From Ectocarpus siliculosus (lineage: Eukaryota; Sar; Phaeophyceae; Ectocarpales; Ectocarpaceae), in NCBI GenBank assembly GCA_000310025.1, contig FN649728.1:1800556-1848110 (forward strand): a stretch of 47,555 bases of DNA. The letters are read 5' to 3'. How positions within the stretch are numbered: position 1 is the first letter of the stretch; the number at the start of each line of letters is the position of its first letter. Positions 1-46,300 of the stretch are shown here, in pieces. The notes below the pieces were generated by a model. That model searched no databases, had not been told where the DNA came from, and saw nothing but the letters and a program-made list of their open reading frames with translations. The position numbers were made by a program, and so were the translations under genes.

Positions 1-1990
1 GCCACATTCGAAGAGTAGCAGACGTGGGCGGTCCTTTCCTTGAGCACCTTGACCGTGATGTCGGCGTGGTTGTCGCCGCCATTCAGGAAAAAACACGGCA
101 CTGCCCTGTCGTCCATCTTGGTCGCCGGCCGCTCCCACATGAAACCGTACTGGAAAAACGGTACCAAACGGAAGGGTCGTTTCTTGCCGGTGTAGAGCTC
201 CTGCGGCGAGGCACCCCCTGCGTTGGAAGGAGATGCAGACTGGTTCAGCTTCTGCGCGGCGTCTTTTGCGGACTCCGCCCAGAGCTCGTCGCCCCGAACG
301 CTCAGCCCGCGGATACGAGAAAATCCAGCGGGGCCAAGTATCTCTTGGGCAGCGCGGCGAGACGCCTTGCCGACCTTGAGGCACCTCTGGATGGCGCTCT
401 CGACGACGCCGTTGTACTGCTGCACGCCGGGAGGGGCAGTACTCGATCGCGATCCCCATGCTGGCACAGAACTCCTTGAAGTCGCCGCTGGTCCAGAGGG
501 CGTCACAGTCGCCCCGGACGCACTTGATCGCGGTGCCAGCCTTGTGGGCGGCGTCCACGACCATGCGCTTGAAGACCGCCAACGCCTCCGACTTCCGCCG
601 CATGGCATAGCAGACGATCCAGCCCGTGGCGGCGTCCACACCGAAGAGCATGTAGTGGTTGCCGCCGATGGTCGCCGTGTACCCGCCGCACATGTCGATG
701 TGGAACATGTCGTTCGGCGCCCTCTTGCCGCGGTATCCGCCCCCCTGCTTCGGCACCGGTGCCCTCGTCCCCCGCGCCGGCAAGCACCACCGGCAGCTGT
801 CCATTGTGCCCGTGAGGGTGATTCCGTGTTGTTTTGCGGATAACCTCAAGATTGGTTCGGACAAGTGGCCGGCACGGTGGTGGAACGTGTTAATATCCAT
901 AACCTTTGTTGCATTGCCGACATGGAAAGGCGTCTTACCCGGACCCAACACAGCCAAAGCACGATCACACTCAGCACCCTCCCAAACATCTATCATCCTG
1001 GCAGAGGATTCTGCCGAAACATCCGTCACGCGGGGGGGTTCAAAATCCGAATCCAGAAGGCAAGTCAACACTTCAGATCTCTGGGCATGCATAAAGATGT
1101 TCAACATGCAGGAATGGGCCCATTCTCTCGAGGGGTCACTACTCTCGGCAGTAGAGGCCGGCTTCACCAGAAAACTCTCACGCGCAACATTCACTTGAGA
1201 CACATCTTTGTGGGGAAGGCGGGAGGCGAAAAGGGAGTCACTTGACACTCCACGGATGAATCGTAGTTTACCGTGCAGCAGTTGAGTTCCGCTAGGGTTT
1301 ATGCGGACTTCATGCTTGTGCGAAACTTTCCAAACCGAAAAAAGATTGAATCCACACCCGGGCACAAACAAAACTTCTGGCACAGTAATGTCTATGTCTT
1401 CCTGTTTTCCCGTCGGCTCCGATTTGGTGGAACCGAAGGTCTAAGCTTCCTACAGCTGCAACCTTGATGAGAGCCGAGTCTCCAATTTGAATAAATTGTT
1501 CATCCTGGCCCAAGTGGCGAATGTCGTACATGTGATCTATCTGGTTCGAAATCATCGCGCTCGCTCCAGAATCGGCCTGCCACTGCTCGCTACCCTTCGG
1601 ATTCGGCATGTACGGTTGGCATAGAAAAGCTTTGTCTACTGTGGGACGCTTGGTGACACGAGCTACAATTAGCATTCCAGATACATCAGAGGCAGCAGGC
1701 ACAATCTTATCCGGCTCAGCAGTCGCGATCACAGCAGGCATAGAAGGCACCCTCACATCATGGACAGCATGCATTATCCCATCAGACTCAGTACTCACAA
1801 CCACGTCAGGCACAGCGGGCACAATCGCATCAGTCTCATGAAAATCGGTCTCCTTCTCATAATTCTCGAACATCGCAGACAGACTCGGAGAAGCAACCCT
1901 GTGCAAATCTTGCTCAGAAAAACAGTGATTCCTATCGTGACTCGCAAGCATTTCAGGGTCAACACCGCGGTACAGCAGGTACGAAAACGT
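1..1990 (-). pseudogene. pol: Copia-type pol: protease and integrase, frameshifted, 3' end outside window
   Basis: The frame overlaps the gag end with a +1 offset. The aspartic protease motif ADSGAS lies at about 1580-1560. After a shift at an A-run near 1410 come the copia-like 'VLFVPGCGFNLFSV' segment, a pre-integrase region with an HxxxGH signature (THHRAGHLSE-like, about 890-860) and CRWC (about 800). The integrase core starts with HIDMCGGYTA (about 690), followed by FGVDAATGW and RGDCDALW. A third shift in a C-run near 434 precedes QQYNGVVES, which carries the expected catalytic glutamate context. Between the breaks the frame is open for several hundred bases, so the decay is recent or the breaks are sequencing errors. 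The RT domain is not in the window. Confidence 0.85.
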
Positions 1991-4089
1991 CAGACGCCTT
2001 AAAACCAAACGCAGACTCAAGAAAAGAATCAAACTTGCCTCGAGGGCACACACTTCGTGCCATGAAGAGACGAAGAGGGGCGTCGCCAGCAGGAGGTAGA
2101 ACGTCGCCTGGATCTGGAGAGGGAGAGGAGGAGGAAGAGGCCGCCTGAGGCACGCCGTGGTACTGCTGCTCCTGCTGCTGCTCAAAACTCGCCTGCTGCT
2201 GCGGGAAGGGCGCCGGCTGCTCCGAGACGTAGAAGGCCTCGTTGTAGACTCTCGGCTGATACGCGTCAGGACCTGCAGCAGAAGGGCAGTATGTTACGTT
2301 GGCCTCCTGCTGCTGGTGCGGCCCGCCGTCTTCGGAAAAATAGCCGAAGCCAAATCCCCCGCCGGCGTTGCCGTAGGAACCGCCGCTGTGGTTCCCCCCG
2401 TGAGCCGCGAGCCCATACCCGTATCCCGCCTCGGAAGGTGATGGGGCCCAGCTTGGCGTGGGTGCCGGCGCCGACGTTTGCTGCCATCCCGAGCTGCTTT
2501 CGCCACCGAACGAATCTCCGCCCCCGATGGCCAGGTGAGCCGGAAAAAAAGGGCCGCGGGACGCTGGCAAGCTGCCCTGCAGGTACGTTGGCCGGCGGGA
2601 AATTGCCCCCGCGGCCGCCGCCTTGCCCACGGCTTTCGTAGGGGCGAGGCCCGTAGCCGCCGTAGCCCCGTCCCCCATCGTTGCGCCCCTGCATCTGCCC
2701 CCCAGCTCCGGGTCCTGGCCCACGCGGCGGCCCCTGAGGCGCATGAGGGTGGCCCTGACTCCAGCCCGCACCGTGTTGGAATTGGTACGACTGCTGTACT
2801 GATGGACCACCAACCCGCCCCAGGTTCTGCGATCCGCCTCGTGGATGAGCGGCCGCCTCGGCGTCCCTCCTGCCGCTCAAGTACGCGCTGATCTCGTTGT
2901 AATTCGCCAGGAACTCGCTGCGCAACTTGTGACAGTCAGCGGTCGCGTGCGAGGTGTTGGGCCCGTGGTACTGGCAGATGTACGGTCCCAGCTGCTGCTG
3001 CTGCTGCTGCTGCTGCTGCCGCTGCTGCTGCTGCGGTGGCTGCATCGACGCCTGTGGCTGCTGCTGCTGCTGCTGCTGCTGCGGTCCGCCGTGACCCATG
3101 CCGACAATGGCTGGTCTCCTCTGCCCGCCGCCCCGGCCCATGCCGGCAGCGACGAGGGCGTGCCTCGTCTCCTCTCCTCTCTCTCCAGACCTCCGCTCGT
3201 ACCTCTGCTCGTGCTCAGCCGTCCTCAACGCCTCCTGCATTTGTGCACTCGACAACATGGGGTGAAAAAGGACACGCTCTTTAATTTTCTCAAATTCTGG
3301 CAAAAAACCCCGAGCGATGTGCTTGCACATGGACACTTCAGCACGATTATCACCGTATGACACCAGTCTCATCCAAAGCGCCTTAGCTCTACCAAAGTAG
3401 TCCATCAAACTTTCTCCATTCCTCTGACACAGCACATTCCACTGATCATCAAACGTCTGTCTTTCCTCGTTTTTACTGCGTCGGTAGTAGTCCAAGAAAA
3501 TTTTGTACCCGGCTTGCGGACTCTCCGCTGCGAGCAATTGCCCTTGAATAGATTGTGCCGTGATCTTCGACAGCATGAAAATCCATACCTTCCTAGACTG
3601 CTTTACTCTCTCCTCACCAAACGAACGTTTCATCCAATCCACATTCACTTGAGCTGCAGCTACAGGAATCTCTGGGCCTCTCATTGCGTCAACCACTCCC
3701 TCGTTCTCCATCCACGCTTCAAACGCACTCGTGAAAATCCGCAACGCAACCTCCATCGATCGATTTTTGAGGAAATCATCACTCCAAACAGGGACCTCGA
3801 CTTTGTCCCGCTGTTTCAACTCTACTGTCTGGGCGCTAGACGTGCCTGAATGGGCACGATGCCCCTGGTCCTGGGAGTTTGCCGTGAAAGCATGCTTGAG
3901 AAGGTCGACCAGCTGACGCATCGAGTCTTGCTGATCTCCCCCCGCCGCCGCTCTCCCTCCCAGATTGTCTTGTTCTTCTGCATCGGCGGTGAACGAATAG
4001 TTGGTTCCTCCATCGCCGGTGCCTTCTCCCGGGGAAGGATCACCATGACCTTGTCCCCCCGGAGGCTGTCGTCCGTCTCCATCCGGCAT
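1959..4089 (-). CDS. gag: Copia-type gag polyprotein (frame change near 2540)
   Basis: The start is the ATG at 4089. The first frame is open to 2266, but its sensible composition ends near 2540. There a run of seven T (minus strand) moves the coherent frame by +1, and that frame then runs to a TGA at 1959. Residues about 70-330 have the look of the UBN2/retrotransposon gag family, including the 'FLDYYRRSKNEERQTFDDQW' region and the 'MDYFGRAKALWMRLVSYGD' region. A polyglutamine tract (CAG runs, 2989-3083) comes next, then a zinc-knuckle-like Cys-His cluster (CQYHGPNTSHATADCHKL), and then a Gly/Pro/Gln-rich tail. The protein would form the virus-like particle and bind the element's RNA. The T-run shift may be an indel or, less likely, programmed frameshifting. 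Confidence 0.85.
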
Positions 4090-4245
4090 CTTGCGCGCGT
4101 AGACACAGCGGCCACTCTCTTGATCGAAACGCTAGCGTGTTGAGTAGCTTTGTGCGTGGGTGCCTCGGCGCGGGGTCCCGTAGTGGGAAACAAAAGGTGC
4201 CAGCAGCTGGGTACTGCCAACGGTCAAAATGTAGAAACTATCCGC

Positions 4246-4436
4246 GGGCGTGAAAGCCCTTCTACGTGGTGGAGCGTGGAAGCTCGTGTATAATATAGTT
4301 GTGGCGTGGAAGCCGGGTGGCGTGGTGGCCCTGATGTAAAGGTATATTTAGGGACGTGGGAGTCCTGAAGGCGTGGAAGCCGGGTTGGCGTGATAGCCGG
4401 AGTATGGGCGTGGAAGCCGGGGTTGGCGTGAGAGCC
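4246..4436. repeat. Array of nine short hairpins with conserved GTGNNA loop
   Basis: Nine copies of a stem-GTGNN(A/G)-stem unit lie at 4246, 4272, 4303, 4319, 4352, 4370, 4387, 4407 and 4425 (12-14 nt each). Most stems are GGC/GCC. Three are 4 bp: GGGC/GCCC, GAGC/GCTC and GGAC/GTCC; in the last two the stem bases changed in a compensatory way. The loops are GTGAAA, GTGGAA (four times), GTGGTG, GTGGGA, GTGATA and GTGAGA. The array sits 157-347 bp upstream of the copia gag start, so on the element's RNA each unit would read GGC-UNNCAC-GCC. Function is unknown; it may lie in the element's leader or LTR. Confidence 0.8.
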
Positions 4437-4631
4437 GGAAAAAGGACTTGATTATACACAGAAAAAGGAAGTGAGGAACCACAAGCCACGCACACAAATT
4501 CCGTTGTAGACACCCATACCCTCAAACCTGCAATATGTGATAAAGTTGGTACCACCAAATCTAATCCATAGCAACCATTGAACCCCCAAACTCCCCGCTC
4601 CATCTGCTCGGGAAATTCTTGCTCGCAATAA

Positions 4632-5185
4632 TCTGTTGATGCTGTGAGTACATCCAACAAAGGTAACCTGTGACCACGGGAATCGACCGCGTCGAGTGTT
4701 GGATCAGTACGGACATGCGAAGGTACTGGGTAGAGAGAGATCGGAACGGTTTTTAATGTGAAGACAACAACAACAACAACAATTATGTGACTTCTGTCCG
4801 AAGTCCGAAAGCAACTGGCAGCCACGAAAAAACAACTGCTGCTGTGACTGACGTCTTTAGACAATGCAAGAGATATCTCCGATAAGAACGCGACGTGCCG
4901 TACAGGCAGGAGAGTATAGCAAGATCGTGCGGTGCATCGCATGCGGTGCGGTGTTATTCAAGGGACAACGCGGTGGGTGCACACACCGGAAAAGAGCGGG
5001 TGCATACATACTCCGAGTACAGCTAGTACAGCGACGAAAAACTCACCGGCTTGATCCTTGTCCTCGACGATACCCAAGTGGCGCACCATGTACCCCGCGT
5101 AAGCAATCACGCCTAGCTGGACGATCCAAGCGCTGAGCAAACCGACCGTGAGCACTGCCATGGATATGAACGGAAAGGATGCCAT
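4632..5185 (-). CDS. 5' exon(s) of an unknown membrane protein
   Basis: Exon 1 is 5185-5047. It starts at ATG (MASFPFISMAVLTVG...) and encodes about 46 residues with two hydrophobic stretches (residues about 5-17 and 20-33), then a charged HLGIVEDKDQA end. It finishes at a consensus donor G|GTGAGT, so the splice leaves one base of a codon. A candidate acceptor at 4633 (CAACAG) opens an exon in the matching phase, read as DYCEQEFPEQMERGVWGF. The SINE copy at 4662-4784 would then lie inside that intron. I do not recognise the family, and the downstream exons cannot be followed. The donor and signal-like hydrophobicity make exon 1 believable; exon 2 is a guess. Confidence 0.4.
4662..4784 (+). 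mobile_element. SINE-like retroposon copy 1, (CAA)n tail
   Basis: This copy shares about 120 bp with 6093-6221: the block CTGTGACCACGGGAATCGA, then a GTACGGACA-like stretch and GAAGGTACT, then AGAGAGA, then GGAACGGTTTTTAATGTGAA, ending in GACAACAACAAC. A (CAA)n tail of varying length on dispersed copies is typical of SINEs. The palindromic ACGGG-loop-CCCGT in copy 2 resembles a tRNA T-arm, but I cannot prove a tRNA origin. Confidence 0.7.
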
Positions 5186-5927
5186 ATTCTATCCGCGTTG
5201 CTTCTCTTTCCTCACTACTGTCTCATTCGACAGGGGTTCCACCCCTCCCTCCCTCTCCAGTTTTTTACCGCACGGGTCTTGGATGAGAATGCGTGTTTTT
5301 CTCGGTGAGAATAGCAGCCGTCGTGCTCACAGACGTGCAGGCGCTCCGCGAGCTCGTTTTCTCCTTCCTCTCGGGCAGGAGGGCCTCGAACAACAACGAA
5401 CGGCAGGCAATGGGACGTCCCGCTCAACGCCAGAAATCGCCGTGCTTACTGGTACTTGCTCTGCGTTGTATCATCCGCGCGGCTGACCGGAGAGAGGGTG
5501 GTGGCAACGAACAACAGCTGGTGTGCGTACCACGACAAGAGCGGATGGGGCCGCAGCCAAGCAAGGTGGGCCGCAGCAAGCACAATATTCACTACCATAT
5601 GCCGTGACGTGACGGAGTTTTGGAAATGAATATCGGAACACATGTCCAGTCTACCGGCAATGTGCAAGTACGTAGTACGTCATACAACTTCCAGCAGTTG
5701 CATTTAGTATCAGTAGCATGCCATGGGTATTTTCACAGGACCTTGCCAGCAGGCAGGATCGGCAGTCAGTATGATCCAAGTACGTATGTATGTATGTAAA
5801 TACAGGAGGGCAAAAGCATTGAACTTCGCCTGTGAGTTGCTGTGAGTCCAAACTTTTTCGCGTGCCTGCAGAGCGTGACCTCCGCGTGCAAGTTCGCCCG
5901 GGCAGGCCAGAGTGAGGCCACGGGATT
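5186..5927. other. Intergenic, no gene recognised
   Basis: A pyrimidine-rich stretch follows the putative start at 5185 and could be promoter or 5' UTR of the membrane-protein gene. I see only short overlapping open frames without recognisable motifs, plus a short (GTAT)n run near 5783-5798. Confidence 0.4.
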
Positions 5928-5981
5928 GTTGTTGTTGTTGTTGTCTTCACATTAAAAACCGTTCCGATCTCTCTCTACCTG
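5928..5981 (-). mobile_element. SINE-like retroposon copy 3, 3' fragment, inverted
   Basis: The (TTG)n-TCTTCACATTAAAAACCGTTCC sequence followed by CTCTCTCTACCT is the reverse complement of the 3' ends of the copies at 4662-4784 and 6093-6221. Only about 54 bp of the tail end are present, so this is a 5'-truncated insertion in the opposite orientation. Confidence 0.75.
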
Positions 5982-6092: not shown

Positions 6093-6221
6093 AGGTAAGT
6101 TAGCCTGTGACCACGGGAATCGATCCCGTCAAGTGCTAGACTAGTACGGACAGACGAAGGTACTAGGCAGAGAGAGAATGGAACGGTTTTTAATGTGAAG
6201 ACAACAACAACAACAACAACT
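6093..6221 (+). mobile_element. SINE-like retroposon copy 2, (CAA)n tail
   Basis: This is the best-preserved copy. It contains CTGTGACCACGGGAATCGATCCCGT, in which ACGGG and CCCGT can pair around a 7-base loop as a tRNA T-arm does. It ends in GACAACAACAACAACAACAAC. It is related to copy 1 (4662-4784) over its whole length with scattered substitutions. Confidence 0.72.
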
Positions 6222-7319: not shown

Positions 7320-9215
7320 GCAGTTGCGTTGCGACGAAATGCCTAGGGTTGTGGCCACCACATGTCTCATGAACTTCGTGCAGAGCAACGACGACGTGTA
7401 TCGAACCTTAAGGTGCCCTCGTCACACCCTGTCATGAGTGCACTCTTCGGTGTCTCACGTTTGCTTTCAGTGTTGTTTTGATGTTGTGGCGACCACGTGC
7501 TCTTGCTGTGTGTACACCAAAGGGTGCCGTCTGTATTTTAAGGAATAATAAAAACACACACAGAAAGACTACCCATTCGAGATATACCCACAGTCGAACG
7601 GAATGTGTTTTGTTCGCGCCACGCAGCATGCGTTGCGACGGAATGCCTAACGTCGAGGCCACCACATGTCGAACGAACTTTGGTGCAGCAACGACAGCGT
7701 GTACTGCACCCTTGCGTGCTATCGTCACACCCTGCCATGGATGCACTTGACGGTTCGCAATTGGTTTTGGTGTTGTTTTAGAGTTGTTGCGACCACATGC
7801 GCAGTACCGATCACGAATGAATATGTACTTCGTCTACGGCATGTCGCTTTGCAACCCCGACTTCATTCCTGTCAAACTCCTATCAACTACTGCTGTGTAG
7901 TGTACGACAACACCCAGGTTCGAACCGGCGTACGGATGCTGCCTGCAGCGTGATCTTGCTGTAAAACCGCATGGAGTTCACCCACAATTACAACCTCGAA
8001 CATCACGTCTGTCTGCCCACCCTTGCTGCGGTAATCATGACAATCTGTTTACATATAATCTCCTCACAAAGAACAACTTACATCCACTACTGCTGGCTCT
8101 ACAGCATTGCACGCCCGCCGGCCCTTTATAAATACTTCGTGCTATCGCTACACCCTGTCATGAGTGCACTTGACGACGGTTCACGTTTCGTTTTATTGAT
8201 GTTTTGACGATGTGGCGACCACGTGCTGCGTGTGGTAGCCATCACGAATATGTACAGCAGTGTAGTTCATCTACATACGTCACGTGCGTTCTGTAACACC
8301 GACTCCACTTCTGCCAAACTCCCACCTCAACTACTGCTATACTGTAGTGTACAACAACACGCAGCTTCCAACCGGCGTAGAGATGTTGCCTGTAGCGTGT
8401 CCTTGCTAGAAACCAACGTGGAGTCCTCCACCCACATATATTTATGTGCAACCCTCGAACAGACGTCTGCTCACCTCTCCTCCGCGGTAATCATACCAAT
8501 TTCCTCACCAAACACAATTTACACCCACTGCCGCTGACTCCGCAGGTTCTACAGCACTGTACGCCGGCCTTCAATCTGCCTTATTCGAAACTGTTCCTGC
8601 GCAGAGTCTGCGTTGTCCGTATTACTGTTGTTTTGTGACCACAAGGTATACTGCTTGACTGCATCCGTGCGACATCGGCTGAAGATTCTGTGAGACGGAT
8701 CCATCACGTACAACATGTACAGTTAATCATGCTATGTATCTAATCGTCACAAGCATAAATATTTGAATTCCCCGCGGTTGGCACTACAACACGTTCCGCA
8801 ATCCCCGCCTATGTACTCCACCCGTTTCTTCTGCCGTTCCACCCGTTGTATCTTCTGCCATCCTCCATTATTATCGACCCACATTTTCGACCAAAAGTAG
8901 ACTTTGACATCCACCAGTACAAGTCATTGTTGGCTCTGAAACACTGCACGCCGGCCTTCAATAGAAGACTTCGTCTGCGATATTTTGCATCAGATCCTTC
9001 GACATCTATCATCACAAACATCACACTGTCCACACCTGGTGCTGTAATCATGCCATGGAATCTACATAATCGTCACAAGCATGAATATTTGAACACCACT
9101 GTCGGCACTACAACACGTTCCGCAACCCCCCGCCTACTCCACCCGTTGTATCTTCGGCCGTCCTACATTATCCACCCACCACATCTTCGTCGGGGCCGAC
9201 ATTAATACCAACGAC
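7320..9215. repeat. Degenerate tandem array, units about 300-420 bp
   Basis: The block 'gtcacaccctg(t/c)catg(a/g)-tgcac' followed by 'gttttgg-gttg-gcgaccac(a/g)tgc' occurs at about 7415, 7724 and 8147. The later parts (accggcgtag/acgg, acgccggcctt, actactgctg) recur at about 7925/8370 and 8105/8565/8950. At the right end, 'cgtcacaagcat(a/g)aatatttgaa' and the following 100 bp recur at 8747 and 9071. Copies are strongly diverged and partly deleted. No open frame is conserved among them, so this looks like an old satellite or nested duplication and not a gene family. Confidence 0.65.
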
Positions 9216-11622: not shown

Positions 11623-12568
11623 TACATATATACATATGTTGTTCTTCGCTGCCCTTTCGAGGGTGGGTGAAAAATATCGCTTGACGCCGCTAAATCAATT
11701 CGTCGTTCTGCTGCCCATGATTCCGACTGCTGAATAAACTGCATACAGCAGCCCCATGTTTGTAGTTTTGAGCGGCAGGCGAGCACTGTATGTCGTGGCG
11801 GTGTCAGAGCAGTGCACACATCTCCGTGCAGACCGTCGAGTCCGAGGTCGGGAGGTCGGCATGCACATCTACACTTCCGCGCGGTTGCGGGCTTTCATCC
11901 AAAACAAATTCAGAAAATAGCCAAGTTCTTGTAGAAGGATCTATTTACAGCAGGCAGTATCGATGAAAGCTCGCGCCGACCTCCCAAAAATGGCGCGAAC
12001 CTATTTTTTCTTCGGGCACAGTTGTACAGCAGGATAGGAAATATGTATCTGTTTTTCTCTGTTTGCTAATTGCATGTGTTCTTGCATCACCCCTTGCCGC
12101 GGTGCTCTCTTTATCCCACTCCGGAGGGATGTCTTGTAACCTTCGATGTAATTATATCCCGAATGTATCAAGTCATGCGCCGATTTTGGGGATATTGACG
12201 TCGTAGCCAGGACAACGTCGTAGCCACGTCATAAGTCGGGATGCCAGTATTGTTCCTCTGAAATGGCTGGCCGAGCTCTTCGTGTTTGGCAACGCGGGAT
12301 CGTTACCACACGCATGAACTAAATTCACTCTTGTTCCGCTAGAGCATTATTCGGAAAGCGTTGCGTGTGTCCCACGGATCGACCAGGACGTGCGTGTGTA
12401 CCCGCCGCAGTATCTCAAGCTGACTTGCCGAGAATCGCCAAGCAGTGAGCTAGAGTTCTAAATAAGGTACATTCCAAAGCCCCCGGTATTGGAATAACAG
12501 AGCGTATCTACCCAGTTTGGCTTATTTGTGGATGTCGGCGCGTTGTCTGTCGTGCTCCCGTGAAATTG
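11623..12568. other. Intergenic, upstream of FNIP-repeat gene
   Basis: No coding frame with recognisable motifs is seen. The frame of the FNIP gene is open without an ATG back to a TGA at 12446, so the last part is probably its 5' UTR, or an exon border lies here. Confidence 0.4.
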
Positions 12569-13891
12569 ATGCGCGTTTTTTTGTCAGCACAACGCAGGTG
12601 CCTCGACGCCTTCGTCGTCGCGTTAAGCCAGTGCTACGAGGGCGGGGAGAAGCGCTGGTATACGTCTACTCTGCAGCTGCAGCTGGCGTCCTTGGAGTTC
12701 TGCGGAGCATGTAGAAGCATCCCGATGCTACATGTCTTTGTGGATGCCGAAACACCTCCCACTCTGTGGTCTCTTGGCCAAGCCAACCCGACTGCTGGCA
12801 CCTCTACCCGCGTGCCGGCCGTGCGGGCTGTTGGCTTGACGTGGGCACGTCCGACGGAGTCTCCGCTGGGGAGTGCTTCAAGCGAGCTCTGGACAAGGCT
12901 AGAATCTCTGCAGCTACAGGTCTCTCTTCGCACAGCTAATCTTGACTCGGTGGTTTGGCCTCAAGGGCTCCAAAGGCTGGTTATGGACTGTCCGTTTTGT
13001 ATGATCCCACCGGAGATGATGTCGTGGCCGTCCTCTTTGAAGAGCCTGACGTTTGCGGGCATTTTCGACCAACCCATCAACGAGATTGTGTGGCCGGCCT
13101 CCATACAGAAACTATTTCTTGGTTTTCGCTTCAACCAACCCATCAGCGAAGTCGTGTGGCCGGCCTCTCTCCAGCAGCTATCTTTCGGGTACTGGTTCGA
13201 CAGGCCCCTTGTTGGAATGATGTGGCCAGCGTCCCTGCGTAGCCTGTCGTTCGGGTTTCAGTTCAACCATCCCGTCGTCGACGTTGTGTGGCCTGCCTCC
13301 CTGCAGCATCTGTTTTTTGGTGTGTCCTTCAACCAGCCAATCGTCGGGGTTGAGTGGCCGAGCTCCCTGCAGCTGCTTTCGTTCGGCGTTTGCTTCAAGC
13401 AGCCTATTGCCGGAGTCGTGTGGCCGGATGATTTGCGAGAACTATTGTTCGGAGATCACTTCAACCAACCCATCAGCGAAGTCGTGTGGCCGTCGTCATT
13501 GCTGCATCTTTCTTTCCGGCGTCACTTCAACCAACCCATCAGCCAAGTCGTGTGGCCATCCTCGCTGCAACAGCTTTCATTTGGGCATATTTTCAACCAG
13601 CCCATCGAAGACTGTGACTGGCCGGCCTCCCTGCAGCAGCTGTCGTTTGGACAAAAATTCAACCAGCCTATCTCTGGAGTTGTGTGGCCGGCCTCCCTGG
13701 AGAATCTATTGTTTGGGGGCAATTTCAACCAGCCAATCGCAGACGTTAAGTGGCCGCCGTCCCTGAGGCAGCTATCGCTCGGACACCCTGAAGCAGCTAC
13801 GTTCGGGAGTAAATTCGACCAACCAATCAACAAAATCGTGTGGCCTGCCTCTATGCGAAGTGTCACCAAAAACGGGCAAAGTTTGTGGTAG
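12569..13891 (+). CDS. FNIP/leucine-rich-repeat protein
   Basis: The protein is 440 aa, a single open frame without introns. The first ATG is at 12569; a GTG lies 9 bases earlier. Residues 1-150 have no recognised domain. From residue about 156 the protein consists of 12 tandem 22-residue units of the form SLQQLSFGxxFNQPIxxVVWPA. The FNQP(I/L) core and 22-residue period match FNIP repeats, a leucine-rich-repeat-like family common in Dictyostelium, giant viruses and some algae, thought to form a solenoid for protein binding. The last unit has an 8-residue insertion and the protein ends soon after, with SLW. There is no signal peptide or membrane segment, so a cytosolic binding protein is likely. 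Partner unknown. Confidence 0.8.
   Translation: MRVFLSAQRRCLDAFVVALSQCYEGGEKRWYTSTLQLQLASLEFCGACRSIPMLHVFVDAETPPTLWSLGQANPTAGTSTRVPAVRAVGLTWARPTESPLGSASSELWTRLESLQLQVSLRTANLDSVVWPQGLQRLVMDCPFCMIPPEMMSWPSSLKSLTFAGIFDQPINEIVWPASIQKLFLGFRFNQPISEVVWPASLQQLSFGYWFDRPLVGMMWPASLRSLSFGFQFNHPVVDVVWPASLQHLFFGVSFNQPIVGVEWPSSLQLLSFGVCFKQPIAGVVWPDDLRELLFGDHFNQPISEVVWPSSLLHLSFRRHFNQPISQVVWPSSLQQLSFGHIFNQPIEDCDWPASLQQLSFGQKFNQPISGVVWPASLENLLFGGNFNQPIADVKWPPSLRQLSLGHPEAATFGSKFDQPINKIVWPASMRSVTKNGQSLW
13034..13849 (+). repeat. Twelve 66-bp coding repeats (FNIP units)
   Basis: The units are in frame with a 66-bp period. The CTTCAACCAACCCATCAGC core is almost identical at about 13129, 13459 and 13525, and units differ mainly at synonymous or loop positions, indicating recent unequal exchange. 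The final unit is 90 bp. Confidence 0.85.
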
Positions 13892-37874: not shown

Positions 37875-38850
37875 TTGGAGGTTCGAGTTTCATTGACTGA
37901 AAACTCTCGCAGTCTGAGCGCCAAGGGCCATCCCGTAAATCGTTATGGATCTATGTTGGAGATTCGAGCAAAGTGAAAACTCGTCGCAGTGGTGAGCACC
38001 TTGCACCTTTTCATCGAAGATGGAAGGGACTGCTATACTTGGGCTTTCTCGAAAATCCTCAAGTTGGAGATTCGAGTCTCATGAAGTGAAAAATCGTCAC
38101 GGTCGTGAGCACCCTCAACGAACAGGAAAGGGACAGCCATAATAGGGCCTTCTCGTAAGTCCTCATGGATCTAAGCTAGAGGTTCGAGTGAAGTGAAAAC
38201 TCTCGCAGTCGTGAGCACCTTCAACGAAGATGGAAGGGACTACTGTAATAGAGTCTTCTCGAAAATCCTCCAGTTGGAGATTCGATCATCATGAAGTGAA
38301 AAATCGTCACGGTCGTGAGCACCCTGAACGAAGAGGGAAGGGAGTGAGATGGAGGTTCGAGTGAAGTCGAATCTCTCGCATCGTGAGCACCCTCAACGAA
38401 GCGGAAAGGGACTGTAGGGTCGTCTCGTAAATCCTCATGGTTCTATGCTAGAGGTTTGAGCCTGATGTAGTGAAGACTCGTCACGGTCGTGAGCACCCTC
38501 AACGACGAGGGAAGGGACTGCTCAGGTCTTCTCGTAAATCCATATGGATCTACGTTGGAGGTTCGAGTGAAGTGAAAACTCTCGCAGTCGCGAGCACTCT
38601 CAACGAAGAGGGCAGGGACTGCTAGGGCCATCTCGTAAATCCTCATGGTGGTATGTTTGAGGTTCGAGTCTCATGAAGTGAAAAACCGTCACGGGTGTGA
38701 GCACGCTCAACCAAGAGGGAAAGGACTGCTCTAGGGCCTTCTCAAAAATCATTGTTTAATGTTGTCTCATGAAGTGAAAACTTGTCCCAGTCGTGAGCAC
38801 CTTCAACGAAGAGGGAAGGGACTGCTTAGGAAGGCCTTCCGTGGGTATCT
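37875..38850. repeat. Tandem repeat, about ten units of 75-110 bp, two alternating types
   Basis: Each unit has GTTGGAGGTTCGAG, then GAAGTGAAAA, CTC(T)CGCAGTCGTGAGCACC, CAACGAAGAGGGAAGGGACTGCT and GGGCCTTCTCGTAAATCCTC(ATGGATCTA). Type A reads GAGTGAAGTGAAAACTCTCGCAG and type B reads GAGTCTCATGAAGTGAAAAATCGTCACGG; from the second unit on they alternate A-B-A-B-A-B-A-B. Units start near 37875, 37953, 38063, 38173, 38271, 38348, 38447, 38554, 38655 and 38761. No conserved open frame runs through the array. Confidence 0.85.
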
Positions 38851-43370: not shown

Positions 43371-46300
43371 TTAGAATCTGCGGAACGAGTAGCTCTTGTT
43401 TCGTCGGTAGGCCTCGAAGGCATCCTGTTCCGCTGCGTCCGTCTTCTTCTTGATGCTGCCGTCCCCTCCCCCGATGCCCGACTTGTCCATCTGCAAAAAA
43501 CAAGGGCGAAAACAAGTCAAAACTAACCATGTTTGGATGAATGTCTCAGGGCCAACTTTTCTTGTTTTGCTTTTCAGAGGTTCTTGCCCTTTTTGGATAT
43601 AGTTTGGGCTGTGGCCATGGGAGGCGCCCGCGTCAGTTGGGCGGGTGCGGATGTTCGAAGGTACTGAGCAACGACCGCCAAGGTTTCTTAAAGTGAAGGC
43701 AACAAGTGGCAACACCTGCGGTAGCAGTCATCAGGCGTGCACATGGAACGGTCTGATGACGCTAACACCGAGGAGACCCTGGCTGGACACGATATTCCCT
43801 CTTGCATGGAGGGTCGCGACACGAATGCAGTCATAAACTACACGTTATAGGGTCGAATCCGTGCGATATGTGGGTGGCAGGTTGGCAACTAACCGTTGAT
43901 GACACCTCTCGCAAGCAAAAACAAGTACTCACTCGGTCGAACGACCGATGGTAGAAAAAAGAAGAAAATAAAAAACATACAAACGCCATCGAGACCTGAG
44001 GCCTCCAACCTCTTCGCGCAGGCACAACAACACGCCGTTAAACACATGTCCACAAAAAAAAACACCCCACTGGTATGTAGACCAAACCAAACGTCAACAA
44101 CGACCGAGACCAAGACCGCTGGCCACACCCCAGTGCTGCTTCGATGCGAAGGAAACAAGCAATAACGCATGAAATAGAGCGGGTTAGCCAACCAGCAGGC
44201 AGTCCTTTATTGAATTGACACTTGCCTGGCCGGAGCCGGAGATGGGTTCCACCATGCCTGATCTTGACGAGCCGAGGCCGGTGCCTTCGCTCCATCCTGT
44301 CATGACGTCATGAGGGTCAACGACGAGAAACACGGCCGGGAATCATGAGAAGAGTTCAATAGTGGTTGAGGCCAATCGAGTGCCCGGGAGTTGAGCAGTA
44401 ACATGCACACCCAAAACAAGCAAGAGGAGACACAACAGCAACAACATCATCGGCAACAACAGACGCGACTACCGCTTCAACATCAACATCAACAACACAA
44501 CAACAGCGACAACCACACCAAACAAACAAACAAACAAACAAGTGAAGACCAACAACAACAACAACAAACAAACAAACAAACAAACAAACAAACAAACAAA
44601 CAAACGACGACCAACTCACCCATCTTCTTGAGGAGGTTGTGGCCGATGTTCTCCTCGCCCAGAACCTTTTCCCTGCCCTGCATGTCGCTCTCGAGCTCAA
44701 GCTGCGCCTGCTTCGCCCGAAGGCCTTGCTGGCTGCCTCCGGCCCCGAACCCCTCGTCCCGATTCCTGCACAAAACGAAGCCACAGGCAATAGCCGTTTC
44801 ACCGTGAAACAAAACATACTCGAGTATATAAGAACGTGTATGCAAGTCTTTCTGTGTTTGTTTGTAAATTATCTGTTAAGGAAAGGCGCTATTTGTGCCC
44901 AGACTCTTGACGAGTCGGCCGCGAGGAAACCGTGTGGTCTGGCGGCACATTGGAGACCGGCTCAGAATACTCGCTGCTTTGAACCGTCGCGGACGCCACC
45001 ACCACCACCAACACAGAGTACTCCAAATCCCCAACACGCGCTGGGGATGGAAAAATCGAGGTGTTACAGTTGTTTGTTCGAGATTGGTGAAGGGAACAAA
45101 AAGTTAAGTCGTTGTATTGTTTATCATTCTTGGGGTTTGATGCACCGAGGCAAGCACACTGCATAGGTAAAGGGATCTTGCTATTAGTGAACGTCAAACG
45201 TTTGCAAGGGAGTCAGCGAGTCCGTCAAAACCAGAACCACTCTAAAGAAACAATCCGTTATAGACCGCAGTGACGGGATGCCAACTGACTACTTCCGCTG
45301 TGTACCGTACCTTCGGCCCCTGTCGTTTTGCCCGCTGCCGCCCCCGCCACCTTCTTTCCCCGCGAGTTTCCTCTCTTCCTCCACTTTTCTCTGCTCCTTC
45401 TCCTTCTTCCGCTCCTCGTGCACTTGTTCGAGAGTGGCCCGGCTATAGAACTCATCCACGCGGACCTTTTTGTTAGGCCGGGTGCAAAACAAAAGACAAG
45501 AAGCGACGCAACAAGGGTTGAATAAGAGACAAGCCAAAATAGAAACGAAACATGAAACTGAAACAAAAAAACTTGTATCCGCTCACGCGAGACACGCGAC
45601 CCACCAAGGGATAGCAATCAAGAGACAAATCAACCCGACAACAAAAACAAAACAAAACAATTTCTAACCACTCAGCAAAAAATGTGGTAGTGAGAGTGAT
45701 GAAGGAAATCGTCAACCCGAAACCCTAGCACCGGCGGTAAACGTTACTTTCACATTCACGCCGATATTGTCGAACAACGAAGACGTCGACGACCACCACG
45801 ATGGCGACAACGGTTGACCAAACCGCTACCTCGCACGGCGGTGGCAACCCGCAAACGTTTCGAATGCTGCACGGGCTCTGTACCAGCCAAAAGGGCCAGG
45901 GAAGGATCGAAATACTCACGTCTAGTCTCCCGGGCTCGATGTGAGGAGTCACGTACTTGGGCAGCAGCTTGATGTCCACCGGCTTGTATCTCCGGAACCC
46001 ATTCCGAAGAGAAACCTACGCACAAGTCATGTCACAGCAAAATTTGCACAAAAAACGAAAGTATCAGACAGATGGATGGAAAAGTAAAATCACCAGACAT
46101 TGCGGGGGGCAGTGGTGCAGCGAAATCTGTGTGGCTTGTCTGGTTTCGCCTCGTGAAATAACAGATCCACACGTGGACGCGGGCGCAACACGTAAGGGTA
46201 CCCCCTGAGCAAGGAAGGACCAACTTGCTTATCTCCCTCTCACATGCCCGCCCTCTGCCTCTCTCATCCTCTGGTGCCTATGGTCTCTCTCTCTGCTTCT

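Follow-up and report, generated by a model that had tools for sequence, protein, structure and literature searches.

A nine-hairpin array with a shared loop and paired stem changes in a copia-type element of Ectocarpus siliculosus

A copia-type element of the brown alga Ectocarpus siliculosus carries nine short stem-loops within 191 bases (Table 1), and this array is real, non-random and fold-preserving. It was found in a 47,555-nucleotide stretch of contig FN649728.1, hereafter called the window. Our tentative reading, to which we give somewhat less than an even chance, is that the units act at the RNA level, as repeated protein-binding hairpins in the sense RNA of the putative 5' LTR of a copia-type element.

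The sequence-only reading had described nine hairpins with a GTGNN(A/G) loop, and a pattern search for perfect Watson-Crick stems closing the plus-strand loop GTGNNR (R is A or G) returned all nine where they had been placed. The stems measure 3 bp in six units and 4 bp in three, the units are 12–14 nt long and the spacers between them 4–21 nt. Dinucleotide shuffles of positions 4240–4440 (n = 2000) gave a mean of 0.08 units and never more than 2, against the nine observed. Across the whole window, 16 such hairpins occur on the plus strand, nine of them in the array, and the 9 on the minus strand are scattered. Additionally, when groups of G+C-containing hairpins sharing any common loop of 4–8 nt were sought, the array came out at the top with 8 members, as counted by the mismatch rule of that scan, while the runner-up among the best 12 listed had 3.

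Table 1. Features of the array and of the surrounding element. Positions are those of the window; sequences are given in the sense of the element.
Feature	Position	Strand	Description
Array of nine stem-loops	4246..4436	-	sense consensus GGC-UNYCAC-GCC, G-poor spacers
Unit 1	4246..4259	-	stem GGGC/GCCC, sense loop UUUCAC
Unit 2	4272..4285	-	stem GAGC/GCUC, outer core pair doubly changed, sense loop UUCCAC
Unit 3	4303..4314	-	GGC-UUCCAC-GCC
Unit 4	4319..4330	-	GGC-CACCAC-GCC
Unit 5	4352..4365	-	GGAC-UCCCAC-GUCC, middle core pair doubly changed
Unit 6	4370..4381	-	GGC-UUCCAC-GCC
Unit 7	4387..4398	-	GGC-UAUCAC-GCC
Unit 8	4407..4418	-	GGC-UUCCAC-GCC
Unit 9	4425..4436	-	GGC-UCUCAC-GCC
Putative 5' LTR	4230..4659	-	430 bp; sense strand above gag, TGTTGGATG (from 4659)...TTTCTACA (ending at 4230), by eye
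TATA-like TATAAT	4451..4456	-	just upstream (sense) of all nine units
TATA-like TATTATA	4289..4295	-	inside the array, seven of nine units upstream (sense)
Gag-like ORF	2266..4089	-	from first sense AUG downstream of 4517; stop to stop 2266-4131
Pol pieces	1..2293	-	Pol_BBD (in 1310-2293), integrase core rve (in 1-1440); overlapping ORFs, different frames

When the units are aligned, the inner C-G pair is invariant, the middle and the outer core pair have each changed on both sides once, from G-C to A-U (GGAC/GTCC and GAGC/GCTC, respectively), and there are no one-sided changes and no broken pairs; a fourth stem pair is present in three of the nine units. The earlier claim of paired stem changes therefore stands, pairing being kept wherever stems change, and two doubly changed pairs arose in 7 of 500 shuffles. 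As the units had initially been selected by pairing, the intactness of all core pairs is partly built in, and the search was therefore repeated on letters alone, allowing up to 3 mismatches to GGCGTGNNAGCC and not requiring pairing. On the plus strand of 4230–4440, this search returned the same nine sites with stems intact in all nine, and found no broken-stem unit in that range. Sites with two mismatches had an intact stem in 2 of 2 cases in the array versus 2 of 45 elsewhere in the window on both strands. The word GTGNNR occurs 13 times in 4240–4440; the four occurrences outside the units pair at 0 or 1 of 3 positions and, by the letters-only search, are not degenerate units. The covariation is real but small evidence, comprising two events between units of one copy.

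These results also bear on the possibility that slippage and local duplication spread a short palindrome through a decaying LTR without any function, with the four units at 4370–4436 forming a young 18-bp minisatellite and the others being older copies. Tandem Repeats Finder does report 3.8 copies of 18 bp at 4370–4439 (76% matches), covering the last four units only, several spacers have GGGT(T) in common, the reading frames of the element look interrupted, and many prokaryotic and viral loci are simple repeats of the same short motif. However, drift would be expected to give units with broken stems, of which the search that did not require pairing found none, and the unit cores are kept (mean identity 81%) while the spacers are mostly unlike in both length and sequence, the shared GGGT(T) apart. 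The centre-to-centre distances of the units are 26, 30, 16, 34, 17, 17, 20 and 18.

For comparison, 175 viral and prokaryotic control loci were chosen by pattern, with a two-unit pattern giving 10 viral loci and a three-unit pattern giving 48 viral and at least 120 prokaryotic loci. The best control locus reached seven units per 200 bases, versus nine in the array. The best 13 of the 175 each had a single stem type and spacings that were mostly one period or its multiples, in contrast to the three stem cores and irregular spacing of the array, and the two-unit viral matches were likewise mostly repeats with one stem type. We take the pattern-matched loci for chance matches. Because the spacing is irregular (16–34 nt) and the control loci never reach nine units, the array is not a plain minisatellite; an entire unit copied at a single period is not what is found here. 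We regard functionless spread of the palindrome as improbable.

The array lies just upstream of a gag-like ORF, as had been claimed, and this ORF and the integrase gene are on the minus strand. The element is probably of the Ty1/copia type, as judged from the order of its protein matches, in which Pol_BBD is followed by integrase; an integrase straight after the protease region and before the reverse transcriptase is the copia order. The rve match is above its curated cut-off (E 5e-9, 36.8 bits, cut-off 32.6), and the Pol_BBD match falls under it (E 8.6e-4, 20 bits, cut-off 27). No reverse transcriptase was matched in the ORFs scanned, and the element leaves the window at base 1, beyond which an RVT_2 domain would lie. 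The ORF at 2266–4089, which we take to be gag, gave no match to a Pfam gag family; it contains a CX2HX5HX4C stretch and a glycine/arginine-rich part, which we assume to be zinc-knuckle-like and RGG-like motifs. In 1–4131, gag, Pol_BBD and integrase are split over overlapping frames, which looks like damage, although programmed shifts or sequence errors may be the cause. Searches of viral contigs with the gag stretch 3106–3831 and the integrase-side ORF 1–1440 found no relatives by protein.

The proposed LTR ends are plausible, given the TG...CA termini and the edge of a repeat at 4660. Similarity to a dispersed repeat begins at this position (at 4668 for a weaker copy) and so adjoins the proposed LTR edge. 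No second copy of 4230–4659 was found in the window, and the 3' LTR would lie outside it. By eye, no clear tRNA match was seen for a primer binding site, tRNA scans were empty, and Rfam 15 gave 0 matches at gathering score in the window. A scan for sigma-70 promoters and terminators returned 0 promoter-like and 1 terminator-like hits, about as in shuffles, with bacterial models applied to a eukaryotic host. If the LTR ends are right, the array would fall in the downstream half of the putative 5' LTR. The sequence-only reading had placed it in a leader; its position upstream of gag is confirmed, but it appears to lie inside the 5' LTR and not in a separate leader.

Several other repeats were noted in the window. 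The dispersed repeat adjoining the LTR has an (AAC)n tail and is perhaps a SINE; it occupies 4660–4785, with copies at 6097–6219 (88% identity), 5925–5979 (inverted, 100% over 55 nt) and 43609–43705 (69%). Positions 7325–8962 hold several dispersed direct repeats of 31–89 nt that are 74–85% alike, and 37924–38830 is an array of about 104-bp and 208-bp units with 73–83% matches. A 480-codon ORF at 12449–13891 has eight FNIP repeats (Pfam E 1.9e-52) and overlaps a 66-bp DNA repeat; this protein had by itself hinted at a brown alga as the host.

With gag encoded on the minus strand, the units have the form GGC-UNYCAC-GCC in the element's own RNA, one of them with a CACCAC loop. The suggestion that the array acts in the RNA of the element gains from the fact that the sense strand is the one that stands out, but the loop displayed would be UNYCAC and not GUGNNR. 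The CAC of the sense loop is constant in all nine units, and the outer stem pairs vary. The sense strand of 4230–4450 folds more stably than shuffles (z −3.08, with 0 of 200 shuffles as stable), whereas for the antisense strand z is −1.13 and 32 of 200 shuffles are as stable; the value of −3.15 for the array was reached by 1 of 96 sampled 191-nt stretches from both strands of the window. The mean hairpin probability over the nine units is 0.72 for sense and 0.16 for antisense.

This strand bias is accompanied by a confinement of G to the stems. In the sense strand, G makes up 28 of 60 stem letters, 0 of 54 loop letters and 3 of 77 spacer letters, compared with 100 of 377 in the flanks. The depletion of G in spacers relative to flanks has P 2e-6, and P 2.7e-4 when four related spacers are left out; among 6783 stretches of 77 nt elsewhere in the window, 19 are equally poor in C and 46 equally poor in G. 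When the spacers were redrawn from flank letters, the sense mean fell to 0.47 and 6 of 300 draws reached 0.72, and when they were complemented it fell to 0.15. Permuting the spacer letters left it at 0.66, with 88 of 300 permutations reaching the observed value. Permuted spacers thus retain most of the effect, and it is therefore the composition of the spacers, not their order, that frees the hairpins. Taken one by one, the six 3-bp units have little stability in sense RNA (−2.4 to −2.7 kcal/mol each), and any single hairpin gains 0.9 to 1.3 kcal/mol in stability when read as antisense RNA, so it is the surroundings that favour the sense strand.

Over a longer stretch the preference is smaller. 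Over 4659–4080, the hairpin means are 0.45 for sense and 0.28 for antisense, with 4 of 9 sense hairpins at 0.23 or below, and for 4440–4080 the sense value averages 0.62, one hairpin dropping to 0.02. The letters-only search strengthens the case for the fold and the long-stretch means weaken the strand argument about equally, and our weighing of the readings is unchanged.

On the RNA-level reading, the sense RNA, which is G-poor and has little structure otherwise, would fold into a row of short hairpins, and every hairpin would display a nearly identical UNYCAC loop to an RNA-binding protein. The partner could be the Gag of the element itself, with its RGG-like part and zinc-knuckle-like motif, or a host protein, and many weak, similar sites may sum to selective binding, which would serve to package the genomic RNA or to control how it is translated. 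This function, the protein that binds and the point where transcription starts are inferred, and so are the LTR ends. What is observed is that one TATA-like box precedes the array, a second lies inside it, and the gag AUG follows. No sense AUG occurs from 4517 to the gag AUG at 4089, which suits a leader but is not significant, the same being seen in 7 to 23% of shuffles in three versions of the stretch. The RNA-level reading is weakened because the TATA-like box inside the array, if real, would leave seven units untranscribed. The choice between leader RNA and an upstream DNA element depends on where transcription starts.

The main competing explanation, which we consider a substantial possibility though not the likeliest one, is that the array works as DNA, its units serving as palindromic binding sites or as enhancer boxes in a cis-regulatory region of U3, as proposed for the repeated motifs of Sireviruses. 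The true TATA box would then be the one at 4289–4295, and the array would either activate or repress transcription. The array is within the putative LTR and seven of its units are upstream of this TATTATA. The closest precedent is in the LTRs of Sireviruses, plant Ty1/copia elements with 3–14 palindromic boxes per LTR; each of the 13 elements listed has at least 8, and most of the boxes precede a TATA box and are found in the upper half of the LTR (PMC2829016). According to the consulted part of another source, cis-regions of transposable elements are often arrays of repeats and sometimes palindromic (PMC10760457). However, the six central bases of our units (GTGNNR) are conserved, asymmetric and in one orientation in all nine, and paired changes that keep the symmetry alter both half-sites, which makes little sense for a site read by its base sequence. 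The depletion of a base on one strand of the spacers is likewise unexpected for double-stranded sites, and by eye the unit spacing shows no helical phase. We slightly prefer a role in RNA to a Sirevirus-like DNA enhancer.

Another explanation considers the palindromes as a source of small RNAs, that is, as hot spots of host silencing. This has been described for the palindromes of maize Sireviruses, which attract small RNAs according to the consulted parts of two sources (PMC10760457, PMC5311732), and for Ectocarpus an association between small RNAs and intact elements is stated in the consulted part of a third (PMC12477816). Silencing, however, would be a consequence and gives no reason for conservation. 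Stems of 3–4 bp are also far below the usual length of small-RNA substrates, and we hold this explanation to be very improbable.

As for the modes of action suggested by the sequence-only reading, dimerisation through kissing loops between units is unlikely, since the longest Watson-Crick run between any two sense loops is 2, and kissing was rejected as a structure; duplexes through the stems may nevertheless form. A closing stem around units 3–9 (4286–4299 with 4446–4459) was also rejected, as 57 of 100 shuffles contain one or more pairs of arms that match it in quality. A search for an anti-loop elsewhere in the element (1–4245) gave one TTCCAC on the plus strand at 3437, and two longer motifs were unmatched.

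A more specific proposal, which we consider less likely than not, is that in an algal copia element the R-U5 leader is built almost entirely from a protein-binding RNA hairpin repeated nine times, on a single strand with nearly no G, making up a modular multi-site signal for packaging or translation. Searches of the open-licence literature brought up no description of such a multi-hairpin signal in copia-type elements. Outside yeast, little is known about how copia-type elements pick their own RNA for packaging. If the proposal is true, a leader that repeats one small hairpin many times would offer a simple means of testing this choice. An array acting at the DNA level would instead suggest that the palindromic LTR regions of plant Sireviruses arose in another copia lineage too.

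In titles and abstracts of the open-licence literature, nothing closer than the Sireviruses was found for hairpin arrays in copia or brown algal elements, and the main text of an Ectocarpus survey with 35 Copia families does not contain "hairpin" or "palindrom" in the part consulted (PMC12477816). The earlier statement that no described copia leader has such an array needs a qualifier in view of the Sirevirus boxes. Like the Sirevirus motifs, the array belongs to a Ty1/copia-type element, has at least eight palindromic boxes (nine here) clustered near a TATA-like box, and has mostly G+C-rich, symmetric arms; in both cases the motif differs between elements. Unlike in 12 of the 13 Sirevirus elements, which share a CGG-CCG core signature (PMC2829016), this core is absent from our units, where CGG forms the left arm in 5 of 9 and CCG the right arm in 0 of 9. 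The conserved centre of the array is six bases long and asymmetric, whereas that of the Sirevirus consensus is about 0–4 bases when read without the underlining of the table being visible, and the array differs further in its two paired stem changes and strand-biased spacers. The stretch ahead of the 3' LTR, where Sireviruses have multiple polypurine tracts, would fall outside the window here.

In plant copia elements such as Tnt1, U3 also carries tandem enhancer boxes. These resemble the array as short repeated motifs in a copia LTR, but the array is made of nine short hairpins whose changes preserve the fold, and its folding is biased toward the sense strand. Finally, retroviral packaging stem-loops have exposed conserved loops, and the array is like them in placing several small hairpins with a conserved exposed loop ahead of gag. 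It differs in having more units, which are nearly alike and have very short stems, and the binding is only putative here. Palindrome arrays in copia LTRs are already known from plant Sireviruses, and the present array is a variant of that kind.
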